Source of the DNA: Caldithrix sp.
Lineage (GTDB): Bacteria; Spirochaetota; Leptospiria; Turneriellales; Turneriellaceae
NCBI GenBank assembly: GCA_020722745.1
Contig: DYKF01000009.1
Span: 1 to 34,574 of the forward strand
Length of the DNA: 34,574 nucleotides
Direction of reading: 5' to 3'
Shown here: piece after piece, positions 4,646-16,265 of the stretch
Layout of the letters: each line of letters opens with the position of its first letter
Position numbering within the stretch: position 1 is the first letter of the stretch
The notes under the pieces: model-generated
Seen by the model: only the letters and a program-made list of their open reading frames with translations
Told to the model about the DNA's origin: nothing
The model's database searches: none
Made by a program: the position numbers and the translations under genes

Positions 4646-5890
4646 ATGGATCGCAGCATTTTGCTTGTAGAGGATGACACCGTTAGTGCAACCCTGCTGA
4701 AAACTATCATTACAAACGCCGGCTACGAGGTTACTCTTGCGAAGAACGGACGGGAAGCTCTCGCTCTTTTTCACAATGGGGAATATCCTGTTGTCGTCAC
4801 TGACCTCAACATGCCGGAGATGAGTGGCGAGGAGCTCATAAAAGAAATTCTCAAAAACTCACAAAAACCCATGATTATTGTCGAGAGCGGGGTTCAGGAT
4901 ATTTCTGCCGCCATTGACATCATGAAAACGGGCGTTTTTGACTATATTCTGAAGCCCATCAATCAGACTGAATTTCTCCTTAAAATAGACAAAGCATTTC
5001 AGGCCCTGGAAATGCGCGAAGCCGAACAGGCAATAGAGAGAGACCGCGAGCTCCGCATACAACAGCAGCTCCAAACCCGCCACACCGTAGAAAAAATTCT
5101 TACCCGCGATTTTAACAAATTTGATCGCGAGCTTTTCTCCAACCTTAAAACAAGTTTTTCTCAGGGCGGTGGATTTGGCGGACTCGTCGCTTTGATTTCT
5201 CTTATTTCCCACAGCGCCCTAAAAGAAAACGGTAAGTATATTATCAGCGAAGAGCTCATGGATCTCGTCATTCAAAACGCTAAAATGGGCGAGCGCGCGC
5301 TCCAAGTTTTTGGAGAAATAGACGACCTCATCAATGCCAAACTTAAACTGGAGAGCCTTACCCTGCGCGAATTCCACAGTTTTGTAACGGCAATCGTACT
5401 AAATCTTTCTGATATAGCTACCATCGAAAACCACACCGTAAAAATCAGCGATGCCTACCTGGACGGCATTCCCGAAGAAATTCTCATTGACCGCGAAAAA
5501 ATGACACAGGCACTGCGCGAAGTCTTTATCAACGCTTTCAAGTTTTCCGTGCCGGGCAGCTCCATTCTCGTCATTTTTAACCACAAGCCCGCCGTACTCA
5601 CTTTGTCTATCATGAGCAAACCCGTTGACAACAAGGGTGATATTGTAGGGATTCCCAAAGAATACGAGAGAGTCGTGTTTGAACCGTTTTTTCGCTTAAC
5701 GCGAACAGTCGACGAGCGTTATGGAACTCTGGAATTTGGACTGGGTCTCACGATGGTTGACAAAGTTCTGCACCGCCATGGAGCTAAACCCTTCATGAAG
5801 AACGTTCGCGATTTTCTCGAAATTGGCAAGGCAGACGCAAGCCGGGTAAATTTTGAAGTGGAATTTCCACTCGAGAAATCAACCCGCTGA
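4646..5890 (+). CDS. Receiver domain fused to a degenerate histidine-kinase core
   Basis: The N-terminal receiver domain (1-120) looks competent: acidic pair E9-D10-D11, phosphoacceptor D53, S81 and K103. A coiled linker (120-160) leads to a region laid out like a HisKA dimerisation domain (163-237): LFSNLKTSF aligns with the usual NMSHELRTP segment, and LKLESL with the usual exit helix, but the phosphoacceptor His is replaced (T169 or S170). The HATPase part keeps the N-box (REVFINAFKF, N296), the F-box (VFEPFFR) and G2 (GLGLTMV, 365-371), while G1 is distorted (D328 to G334 with extra residues). It is therefore probably a receiver-controlled pseudokinase or a scaffold, not an autophosphorylating kinase; this is inference. 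It follows lplA by 3 bases, and its last 12 bases overlap the end of convergent lpxC. Confidence 0.75.
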   Translation: MDRSILLVEDDTVSATLLKTIITNAGYEVTLAKNGREALALFHNGEYPVVVTDLNMPEMSGEELIKEILKNSQKPMIIVESGVQDISAAIDIMKTGVFDYILKPINQTEFLLKIDKAFQALEMREAEQAIERDRELRIQQQLQTRHTVEKILTRDFNKFDRELFSNLKTSFSQGGGFGGLVALISLISHSALKENGKYIISEELMDLVIQNAKMGERALQVFGEIDDLINAKLKLESLTLREFHSFVTAIVLNLSDIATIENHTVKISDAYLDGIPEEILIDREKMTQALREVFINAFKFSVPGSSILVIFNHKPAVLTLSIMSKPVDNKGDIVGIPKEYERVVFEPFFRLTRTVDERYGTLEFGLGLTMVDKVLHRHGAKPFMKNVRDFLEIGKADASRVNFEVEFPLEKSTR

Positions 5891-11826: not shown

Positions 11827-14766
11827 ATGGTTGAAGTTCAGGATCAGGACGAATTGCGCATTTTTCTCGAAGAACTCAATGAAAACCTGAGCTTTCTCGA
11901 CAATGCCATTATTGCTCTCGAAGAGAATCCCACAAACAAGGAAATGATCCAGGAGATTTTTCGAGTTGCGCATACCGTAAAAGGCAATGCAGGATTCCTT
12001 TCCATCAAGAATCTGGTAGACCTGGGCCATGCCATGGAAGAGGTATTCAAAGAATTCGAGAAGGGCAATATTCCGGTCACCAGCCCCGTTATTGATACTC
12101 TGCTGGAATGCAAGGACGCCATTTCTGCCATTGGAGCAAGGCTGTCCGAAGGTACAGACCCCGGTGCAATACCGGTGCAGCATCTCATTGAAAAGGTGAA
12201 CAGTTTTGTAGGCAAAGGTTCACCAGAGGCGCCGCCTTCTGCTTCTGGCAGTGTGCAGATGTCCGATGAAGAAATCCCGGAATATGTCCCCGGCGCAGGG
12301 CTCATTCGCGTCTGGATTTCTCCCAATGAGCCGGCTCCTTCTGTTCGCGCCTTTCTGGTCCACCAGAAAATAAACAGCTTTTCTGAAATCATCCGCCACG
12401 CTCCGGGTGACGAAGAACTGGAGTCTCCCGATTTTGCTGCCAGTGAACGCGAACTTCGCTTCTGGGTTCACACAGCTCTCACTCCGGCAGAGATTCCAGA
12501 CTTTATCAACATAGATCTCATTGAGCGCATTGAATATATCGAAGAAGACGATCTTCGCAAACTGAACGAACGCAAGAATCCTGAAAGCGTGGTGCAGGGG
12601 GGTGGCAAGCAGCAACGGGAAGACCTCAGCATTTCTGATACCGTCCGCATTCCCGTCGCAAGACTCGATACACTTCTCAACCTGGTTGGCGAGCTCGTTA
12701 TTGCAAACAGTGGACTCATCCAGATACAGGAATATATCAAGGACAGGCCGGAATTGGCGGATGTTGACCGCCAGGTGCGCGATCGGGTAAAAGAGATTTT
12801 TAGAATTTCTGGAGACGTACAGGAACTCGTCATGAAGTCTCGCCTGGTTCCCATTGGACAGGTATTTTCCCGCTTTAAGCGCTTTGCCCGCGACTATTCT
12901 TCCCGTACGGGCAAAAAAATCCATCTGGAACTCGAAGGCGAAGAAACAGAAATAGATAAAAAAATCATCGACGAGATGATTAAGCCTCTGACGCATCTCG
13001 TTCGCAATTCTGCGGATCACGGACTCGAAGACACAGAAGAGCGAAAAGCTAATGGTAAAAATGAAACGGGCCTCATTCGCCTTGCTGCAAACCAGGAAGG
13101 CAATTACATTAACGTAATCATAGAAGACGATGGGCGCGGCCTCGATTACAATAAAATAGTGAGCAAGGCTATTTCCAAAGGCCTCATCACGAGAGAAATG
13201 GCTGCAACCCTCACAGAGGAAGAAGCTAAAACTCTTATTTTCTCACCGGGCTTTTCTACCAAAGATACTGCCGACGATATTTCCGGGCGCGGAATTGGAA
13301 TGGATATTGTCAAGCGCAGCATTGAGCTTCTAAACGGCACCATAGATGTCCAAACGGAAAAAGGAAAGGGAACTAAAATCACTGTTAAGCTCCCTCTTAC
13401 TCTGGCTATCATCAATGCCCTGATTGTTCAGGTGGGAGATGAAAAATATTCCGTGCCCATGGGTGCCATCGTAGAGACTCAAAAAATCCGCCGTGAGAAT
13501 ATTCTCATGATAGACGGTAACGAAATGGTTCGCCTGCGCGACATTCTGATCCCTCTTATTCGCCTGGATAAAATCTTCCAGCTCGATATTTCTAAAAACA
13601 GGCAACAGGATACTTATCCAGTTATTGTTGTGGAGTATAATGACACTCTCGTTGGTCTTCTCGTCGATCAATTCCTGACCCGTCACGAGATGGTAATTAA
13701 ATCTCTCGCAGAACACTACCGCCCCATTGAAGGCATTTCGGGTGCATCCATCATGGGCGATGGAGACATTATTCTGATTCTCGATGTTCACGGAATCATT
13801 CAGCTTTACAAGCAACTATCCAGCGGACATATCCTTTCAGAAAATGCCCCACGTATCATTGTTTCGCGCAAAAGAAACAAAGAGCAGGAAACCGAAAAAG
13901 CAGCTGCGCAGAGCGCTAAAGAAACTCCTTCCACAGTGCAGGTCAGCGCAAAGCCAACCCAAGAAACCAAAGCCGTCAGAGAGCCATCAAAAGAAATCGA
14001 AAAGCCTATGAAAGAGCCAATGGAAGCGCCCCCAAAATCAGAGAACGATAAACAAACGCTGGTAGATGAAATTATCCGCCAGGCGAAAACAGGCGCTCCC
14101 ATTGTAAATATTGACGATTTGGATATACAGGAAGATGCGGCGCTCTCCTTCCACAAAGATGAAGACAAAGAACAATCCCTGCAAAAACTAAAGGAAATTT
14201 TTGCCCCAGAAAATAGAGATATGCTCAAAGAATGGCTTCGGCAGGGCAATTACCGGGCCATCCACGGAATCCAGGCCCTGACTGGTACGCACAATATTAA
14301 ACTGGAAAAAAGCAAGGGGCAGCAGATAACCGTGGAGAAGATAGACAACATTCTCGACCGCATCCGAAAAGAGCCCGGCAAGATGATTGACTTTTCTCTG
14401 CCGATTAATCCGCTCGACGGCGCCGTGCATTTTTTACTGAACGAAGAAAACGCACACAAGATTGTCAAGCTGTTGCTGGAACAGGCGGGTCTCGATGTTC
14501 CCGAAGAGCTGGAGTATGAACCCCTGATGGAGGTAACGAACATTCTTGGTTCTGCGTATACGAACAGCCTGACACAGATTACAGAGGTTCCCGTAGAACC
14601 CGGAGTACCAAAAATCATTGACGACAAAGACGAAATTATACAACATATTAAATCCCAGATTTCTGGCCCCCCCATGGAAATTTTATATATTGAAAATAAG
14701 TTCCTGTGGGAACAGGAAGATATTAAAGCAGAATTGTTAATTCTCGTGCCAGAGATAAAGATTTGA
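11827..14766 (+). CDS. CheA histidine kinase with C-terminal CheC/CheX-like phosphatase domain
   Basis: The 979-residue hybrid reads, in order: Hpt domain (1-125) with phosphoacceptor H49 in AHTVKGN; a region (150-245) that may be a response-regulator-binding P2; dimerisation helices (270-345, VARLDTLLNLVGELVIANSG); ATPase (380-525) with N-box RNSADHGLE (393-401), G1 DDGRG (434-438) and G2 GRGIGMDIV (487-495); CheW-like domain (525-665); an acidic, Lys/Pro-rich linker (680-770); a helical segment (775-850); and a C-terminal domain (855-979) resembling CheC/CheX. That domain has LPINPLDGAVHFLL and E902-x-x-N905 followed after exactly 22 residues by P928, the spacing known for CheC/CheX active sites; the usual D/S four residues before the Glu is E898. 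Only one such site is present, as in CheX. The message is probably leaderless. The cheY-type gene follows. Confidence 0.88.
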   Translation: MVEVQDQDELRIFLEELNENLSFLDNAIIALEENPTNKEMIQEIFRVAHTVKGNAGFLSIKNLVDLGHAMEEVFKEFEKGNIPVTSPVIDTLLECKDAISAIGARLSEGTDPGAIPVQHLIEKVNSFVGKGSPEAPPSASGSVQMSDEEIPEYVPGAGLIRVWISPNEPAPSVRAFLVHQKINSFSEIIRHAPGDEELESPDFAASERELRFWVHTALTPAEIPDFINIDLIERIEYIEEDDLRKLNERKNPESVVQGGGKQQREDLSISDTVRIPVARLDTLLNLVGELVIANSGLIQIQEYIKDRPELADVDRQVRDRVKEIFRISGDVQELVMKSRLVPIGQVFSRFKRFARDYSSRTGKKIHLELEGEETEIDKKIIDEMIKPLTHLVRNSADHGLEDTEERKANGKNETGLIRLAANQEGNYINVIIEDDGRGLDYNKIVSKAISKGLITREMAATLTEEEAKTLIFSPGFSTKDTADDISGRGIGMDIVKRSIELLNGTIDVQTEKGKGTKITVKLPLTLAIINALIVQVGDEKYSVPMGAIVETQKIRRENILMIDGNEMVRLRDILIPLIRLDKIFQLDISKNRQQDTYPVIVVEYNDTLVGLLVDQFLTRHEMVIKSLAEHYRPIEGISGASIMGDGDIILILDVHGIIQLYKQLSSGHILSENAPRIIVSRKRNKEQETEKAAAQSAKETPSTVQVSAKPTQETKAVREPSKEIEKPMKEPMEAPPKSENDKQTLVDEIIRQAKTGAPIVNIDDLDIQEDAALSFHKDEDKEQSLQKLKEIFAPENRDMLKEWLRQGNYRAIHGIQALTGTHNIKLEKSKGQQITVEKIDNILDRIRKEPGKMIDFSLPINPLDGAVHFLLNEENAHKIVKLLLEQAGLDVPEELEYEPLMEVTNILGSAYTNSLTQITEVPVEPGVPKIIDDKDEIIQHIKSQISGPPMEILYIENKFLWEQEDIKAELLILVPEIKI

Positions 14767-15173: not shown

Positions 15174-16265
15174 ATGCTTACCGGCAGAAAACTTGACGAC
15201 AAAAAAATTCTTCTCATTGAAGATTCGCGAGCCTCCTCAAATATCATAGAAACCCTCGTAGAAGAGAATGGTGGTACTCTTGAAGTATATAATGATTTAT
15301 CTAACCAAGATCTCATTCTCGCGGAAATTTTTGATATTGCCATTCTCGATATATTCCTCAAAAATGAATCCACACTGGAATTTATTAAGCTGCTAAAAAA
15401 ACGCTCACCGACTACGCGCATCATAGTCGTTTCATCGAGCACCTCTGTTCTCGCGGAAGATCCCGAAGCAGCAGCAAGTGTGGATTATCTTGTAGAAAAG
15501 CCTTTTACGTCGGATAAGATGCTTTCGGCCATTGATGCCTCTTTGTACCTTCCGTTAAAAAACAAAAATGTTCTCATTGTTGACGATGCCAAAGTGAGCC
15601 TCAGGGCCTTAGGCCGAATTGTCGCCAAACTTGGTGGAATAGCAGATTCATATGCCGATCTTTCCGCAGAAAATGAAATTCTCAAAAACAAATACAGCCT
15701 CGCCATTCTCGATCTCATGCTAAAGGACGGCGTTACAACCATCGACTTTATTCAAAAGCTGAAAAACGCTCACCCGGAGACATTCATATTTGTTCTTTCT
15801 GCTATGCCGAGTGCGATGCATGCTTATCCGGAAATACTATCCAATGTAGCGTTTATTTTCCAAAAGCCAATCTCTGACCAGGTTCTCGAAAGAAATTTAA
15901 TCAAGACAATAGAACGGCCTTATGCAGATCGCAGAAAAAACCCGCGTAAACCAGGAATGGCACAAGTCTGGGTTGCTGAATACAACCTAGAAGAAAAAAA
16001 AGCGGAACTTTTTGAATCGCCAGCTCTTCTCGATTTATCGAACCATGGCATCTCTTACCAGTCGTTCCTTACATACGAAGAGGGCGAATATATTATCTGC
16101 TGGATCAATTATGAGGGCGCCATTGTTGAGATCATTGCCAAAATAATCTGGAGCAAGCCCGCAGAAAAAATGACTCAATATGGGGCCGAGATTATTCCAA
16201 AACTTTCGAGCGGCTTTTCAAAGCTTCAGGAATTCGTAACGCGCATTACTATAGACGAAAACTAA
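15174..16265 (+). CDS. Tandem receiver protein with C-terminal PilZ domain
   Basis: The 363-residue protein has two receiver domains and a PilZ-type c-di-GMP-binding output. REC1 (about 10-125): E16-D17, phosphosite D59 (AILDIFL), S88 or S89, K109. REC2 (about 131-245): D137-D138, D180 (AILDLML), S209, K231. The PilZ domain (about 252-363) carries the ligand motif RRKNPR (R254-x3-R258) followed by DLSNHG (D287-x-S289-x2-G292), the two hallmarks of c-di-GMP binding. Both receivers look able to be phosphorylated. It starts 2 bases after the CheY stop, so the operon joins kinase, phosphatase, CheY and a second-messenger output. It ends 10 bases before the end of the convergent lptF-like gene, with no terminator between. 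Confidence 0.88.
   Translation: MLTGRKLDDKKILLIEDSRASSNIIETLVEENGGTLEVYNDLSNQDLILAEIFDIAILDIFLKNESTLEFIKLLKKRSPTTRIIVVSSSTSVLAEDPEAAASVDYLVEKPFTSDKMLSAIDASLYLPLKNKNVLIVDDAKVSLRALGRIVAKLGGIADSYADLSAENEILKNKYSLAILDLMLKDGVTTIDFIQKLKNAHPETFIFVLSAMPSAMHAYPEILSNVAFIFQKPISDQVLERNLIKTIERPYADRRKNPRKPGMAQVWVAEYNLEEKKAELFESPALLDLSNHGISYQSFLTYEEGEYIICWINYEGAIVEIIAKIIWSKPAEKMTQYGAEIIPKLSSGFSKLQEFVTRITIDEN

Follow-up and report, generated by a model that had tools for sequence, protein, structure and literature searches.

A spirochete CheA kinase with a C-terminal CheC-type domain that conserves one of two phosphatase motifs

The window, by which we mean the whole stretch of 34,574 nucleotides that was analysed, contains an open reading frame in which the domains of a CheA kinase are followed by a polar linker and a C-terminal CheC-type domain, with a gene for a stand-alone CheY close behind it (Table 1). 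The original prediction had described this frame as 979 codons long and had placed E898, E902, N905 and P928 in its product, and each of these particulars is exactly as claimed. The kinase portion carries the domains that define a CheA (Hpt, dimerisation, HATPase and CheW-like, in that order) together with the optional P2 domain, and all five score above their Pfam cut-offs. A check of sequence motifs places the phospho-acceptor at H49, within an AHTVKG motif that begins at residue 48, and finds the ATP-site motifs of the CheA core in place as well.

Table 1. Features of the cheA–cheC locus and the genes that follow it (coordinates are those of the window; residues are those of the fusion protein)
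Feature	Coordinates	Strand	Description or evidence
CheA–CheC fusion protein	11827..14766	+	979 aa; stop codon included in coordinates
Hpt (P1) domain, residues 10–100	11854..12126	+	Pfam E 1.7e-13
P2 response-regulator binding domain, residues 160–236	12304..12534	+	Pfam E 2.1e-9
Dimerisation domain, residues 270–337	12634..12837	+	Pfam H-kinase_dim E 1.9e-14
HATPase kinase domain, residues 387–525	12985..13401	+	Pfam E 1.3e-17; N, G1, F and G2 boxes
CheW-like (P5) domain, residues 531–659	13417..13803	+	Pfam E 2.7e-25
Polar K/E/P/S-rich linker, residues 660–783	13804..14175	+	Sequence; no family above Pfam cut-off
Full-length two-halved CheC domain, residues 784–979	14176..14763	+	NCBIfam, AlphaFold2, Foldseek
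Degenerate first site, D798-x3-E802-x2-R805	14218..14241	+	Alignment columns; N replaced by R
Second site, E898-x3-E902-x2-N905	14518..14541	+	Motif, alignment, AlphaFold2; predicted helix 897–919
P928 of the N-x22-P motif	14608..14610	+	Invariant in 55/55 fused domains
CheY, stand-alone receiver, 124 aa	14797..15171	+	Pfam Response_reg E 9e-30; D11, D56, S84, K106
363-aa protein, two receiver domains, weak PilZ-like C-terminus	15174..16265	+	After cheY; outside the fusion

The cheY gene starts 30 bp downstream of the fusion gene. The order of cheA followed by cheY is kept in nine relatives (L082–L089 and L094), with CheY 75–100% identical, and no cheY like that of the window was found in the flank of the six Turneriella-group loci that have downstream sequence (L091–L093 and L095–L097). 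The downstream CheY is likely the partner of the fusion protein. Several relatives carry a second cheY in tandem after the first (L086:7021-7356, L087:7021-7356, L088:5025-5360, L089:7039-7395 and L094:7108-7446), whose product is about 45–52% identical to the window's CheY and which is absent from the window. The two-receiver protein encoded next has relatives close to the fusion gene in a number of the order's families and is possibly linked to c-di-GMP. Elsewhere in the window, positions 4646–5890 of the forward strand encode a receiver joined to a HATPase domain, with no dimerisation domain recognised.

The identity and extent of the C-terminal domain required more than a single comparison. 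The original prediction had placed a domain of CheC/CheX type at residues 855–979; the CheC assignment stands, and the CheX assignment and the starting point do not. Against these 125 residues in isolation, the Pfam profiles of both families score below cut-off (CheX, E 2.2e-4, 21.7 of 27 bits; CheC, E 0.039, 14.3 of 22 bits), and as a single sequence the segment matches a CheC in the PDB at E 0.15 only, so that a family profile was needed. A profile of 18 relatives matches Thermotoga maritima CheC (1xkr/2f9z) at E 1.3e-5 and a Haloarcula CheC at E 5e-4. Likewise, the NCBIfam model CheC_Thtogales aligns with residues 796–975 of the full protein along positions 7–187 of its 201 (E 1.1e-8; 35.3 bits, below the equivalog cut-off of 250), and because it spans these residues the C-terminal domain is a full-length CheC. 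The window's domain thus falls below the curated cut-offs for CheC; distant relatives of the same fusion pass that of Pfam CheC.

The predicted structure points the same way. An AlphaFold2 model of residues 784–979, built from 17 sequences (pLDDT 90.7, pTM 0.85), has the two-halved fold of about 200 residues expected of a CheC, and its top Foldseek matches in the PDB are the CheC structures 3qta, 1xkr and 2f9z (TM 0.67–0.68 over 187–194 aligned columns). The stand-alone T. maritima CheC shares this fold (TM about 0.67) and differs from the window's domain in that the latter is fused to CheA and has a degenerate first site. The CheC-like domain of FliY (4hyn) has the same fold as well (TM 0.63–0.67), but FliY is a motor protein that also has a FliMN_C domain; the identification of the fused domain as FliY was rejected, since Pfam finds no FliMN_C domain in the fusion protein and the genome encodes a separate FliY. 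Matches to the middle domains of FliM reach TM 0.47–0.66. CheX (1xko; 3hzh for the CheX–CheY complex) is a member of the same superfamily with one E-x2-N site per chain, but its fold match is lower, at TM 0.50–0.51 on the query, and a profile–profile comparison (hhalign) with 17 spirochete CheX proteins gave no significant match (probability 2.6%). With CheC at the top of the fold matches, CheX weaker and the CheX profile comparison null, the domain is, on the evidence of the model and the profiles, of CheC type, and a CheX identity was rejected. The 855–979 boundary was also rejected in favour of about 790–979, given the span of CheC_Thtogales, the AlphaFold2 model and the Foldseek alignments; the residues omitted from the shorter span contain the degenerate first half-site.

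When the fusion protein is shuffled, the motif [D/S/E]-x3-E-x2-N-x22-P arises in about 5% of cases, or in 2.6% if the first residue must be D or S, and for this reason it would on its own be weak evidence; it is homology that lifts the domain above chance. CheC proteins normally have two related half-sites. In the window's domain the first of these, D798/E802/R805, has lost its asparagine, and the second keeps E902, N905 and P928, with glutamate rather than D or S as its first residue. Because site 1 is lost, the fused domain has one intact site and not the two active sites of a typical stand-alone CheC, and we classify it as a single-site CheC-type domain, which bears out the single-site description that it had been given. 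This arrangement is uniform: among 55 aligned fused domains (54 of them distinct, one genome being represented twice), drawn from the order and class of the window and from further classes of the phylum, the E, N and P of site 2 are intact in all 55, and E and N are present together at site 1 in none. In the same alignment, both sites are intact in six of seven stand-alone spirochete CheCs. Most of the fused domain has diverged to about 20% identity while these three residues have stayed invariant. Of the 184 positions compared across the first 30 fused sequences, just six never vary (A811, E902, N905, N913, P925 and P928). A model that places invariant positions at random, and takes no account of phylogeny, gives a probability of about 2e-5 for the three motif residues being among them. 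It had also been claimed that only the first motif residue, E898, departs from the consensus. The departure is real, and it looks like a tolerated lineage variant, found mostly in the window's order, and not a defect of this particular protein: the aligned fused domains have S at this position in 42 cases, E in 11, and G and L in one each, and E also occurs in two of the seven stand-alone CheCs. Profiles, fold and conservation together support the central element of the original prediction, a CheA joined to a C-terminal CheC-type domain with one intact site.

It is informative to consider how widely this architecture occurs. In a first search, each of the 18 genomes from the window's order gave a strong match to the fused domain, 17 of them in long ORFs of CheA size, the exception being a partial ORF in a genome that is 54% complete; a genome of the same genus keeps the full-length architecture, its domain being 95% identical. 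When 296 Spirochaetota genomes were searched with a profile, almost every class member covered had the domain in a long ORF, and so did 45 genomes outside the class, from at least 11 Spirochaetota families (counted from the table of that search). Eight of these outside-class proteins were checked with Pfam: all eight have the five CheA domains, and their CheC matches lie above the cut-off in five and under it in three. In a domain tree, the stand-alone CheCs group together, so that a single branch separates them from the fused domains. The tree is compatible with one fusion event but does not prove it, given its several long branches and the lack of a fixed root.

The fusion itself is already in the literature. 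Although the original prediction regarded it as an undescribed architecture, fusions of CheC/CheX with F1 CheAs in the class Leptospirae, and a proposed dual kinase/phosphatase role for them, are described in the survey passage of Berry, Andrianova and Zhulin 2023 (PMC10782961). The nearest named relative of the window belongs to the same genus and is labelled a Turneriella parva metagenome assembly; another relative is filed as Turneriella sp., and since NCBI taxonomy puts Turneriella in the class Leptospiria of the Spirochaetota, the window comes from the class that these authors covered. The present protein resembles theirs in spirochete class, in joining CheA to a CheC/CheX domain and in its proposed dual role; the surviving catalytic site and the spread outside Leptospirae, both addressed here, are not covered in that passage. 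A search of the literature on Leptospira CheA and CheX found nothing beyond this paper.

The other chemotaxis proteins of the genome bear on what the fused domain might do. No match to CheZ was found in the window genome, nor a stand-alone CheC (there is no PF04509 match above cut-off, and the sole match to a broad CheC profile is the fused domain), nor a stand-alone CheX by either family (PF13690) or profile search. By the same family and profile searches CheX was likewise not found in genomes G001 and G003, whereas relatives G005 and G006 do carry it. The PF13690 scan missed the fused domain itself, and the absence searches were redone with family profiles; the absences of CheX, CheC and CheZ rest on first-pass filters and on an assembly that is 98.9% complete, fragmented into 430 contigs and of metagenome type. 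FliY is present as a separate 373-aa protein (contig C226) that has both core motifs, DVITEILN and also STLSELVN, the latter with N-x22-P, and another CheY-P phosphatase therefore probably exists. Two further CheAs are encoded on contigs C187 and C266, in ORFs of 739 and 1058 aa.

In CheC and CheX catalysis, the glutamate of the site makes contact with CheY, while its asparagine orients the water that attacks the phosphate. The order of the domains, the CheC fold, the conserved second and lost first site and the linked cheY are established by the present analysis. From the biology of CheC, CheX and FliY, and from the CheX–CheY complex (3hzh), we infer catalysis, substrate and location for the fused domain, and the most likely reading of the sequence and the model is that a kinase and a CheY-P phosphatase share one polypeptide. 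More specifically, we think it probable that the CheA carries a tethered C-terminal CheC-type CheY-P phosphatase, with only its second site catalytic, that acts on the neighbouring CheY at the receptor array. The kinase core would phosphorylate the CheY encoded next door, and the CheC domain, held at the C-terminus of CheA by a flexible linker of about 120 residues, would strip the phosphate from CheY-P, probably by the CheC/CheX route, using only the second of two ancestral sites. The result would be a phosphate drain at the array beside FliY at the motor, with a probable effect on signal lifetime. Weighing against this phosphatase reading are the glutamate at position 898, the Pfam matches below cut-off, the presence of FliY and the Turneriella-group loci with no such cheY.

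The CheC proteins of Bacillus subtilis are adaptors as well as enzymes, and on that precedent the fused domain might bind CheY-P or CheY without catalysis, recruiting CheY to the array or feeding back on the kinase. The loss of one of two sites in all fusions would fit such a role, and FliY could supply the phosphatase activity; nonetheless we consider it unlikely, as E, N and P928 are invariant in 55/55 domains amid about 20% identity and mere binding does not obviously need both the E and the N. Less probable still is that the domain mainly docks the deamidase CheD, tying receptor deamidation to the state of the kinase with phosphatase activity secondary: each of eight genomes tested encodes CheD, and T. 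maritima CheC binds CheD in 2f9z, which is among the best fold matches, but the one CheD of the window genome is on contig C187, with another CheA (that of 739 aa) about 4 kb away, and the invariant positions fall on the phosphatase site. A spurious or decayed appendage, whether a frameshift join, a misassembly or a dead domain, can be dismissed even for a genome in 430 metagenome-type contigs, being refuted by the conservation, by the recurrence of the same architecture in the same-genus genome, throughout the 18 genomes searched in the order (apart from the one partial ORF) and in much of the phylum, and by the lack of internal stops.

If the tethered domain is indeed a phosphatase, its distribution invites speculation. 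We put forward only tentatively that this may be a phylum-wide invention, in which one ancient fusion was accompanied or followed by the loss of site 1 with site 2 kept, and in which some lineages, this genus among them, retained no CheY-P phosphatases other than the tethered CheC, at the array, and FliY, at the motor. How long the signal lasts, and what shape it takes, depend on where in the cell CheY-P is broken down; this is important in spirochetes, which have motors at two cell ends to coordinate. A kinase with a tethered putative phosphatase, in a lineage with no detected CheZ or stand-alone CheX or CheC, offers a clean system in which to compare dephosphorylation located at the array with that located at the motor.

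The fusion is genuine and occurs widely among spirochetes, and both its architecture and the idea of a dual function are already known. Since it has been published, the value of the present analysis lies in details, above all the consistent loss of one site and a spread wider than in the published survey passage. What is added to Berry et al. 2023 is the identity of the domain as CheC and not CheX, its revised limits, the finding that every aligned fused domain has lost site 1 and strictly kept site 2, the broader distribution within the phylum and the failure to detect CheX, CheC or CheZ in the genus, although some of this may be partly implicit in that paper.

Variants of the architecture were also seen. 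A genome of the same family encodes a second CheA of 894 aa (L129, G008:C455) with a very diverged C-terminal domain, which matches the fusion profile at E 1e-26 yet receives no Pfam CheC call. Two loci, L089:2545-6585 and L094:2506-6585, encode CheA–CheC fusions of about 1350 aa, some 370 residues longer than that of the window, and the extra residues sit between the CheW and CheC domains.
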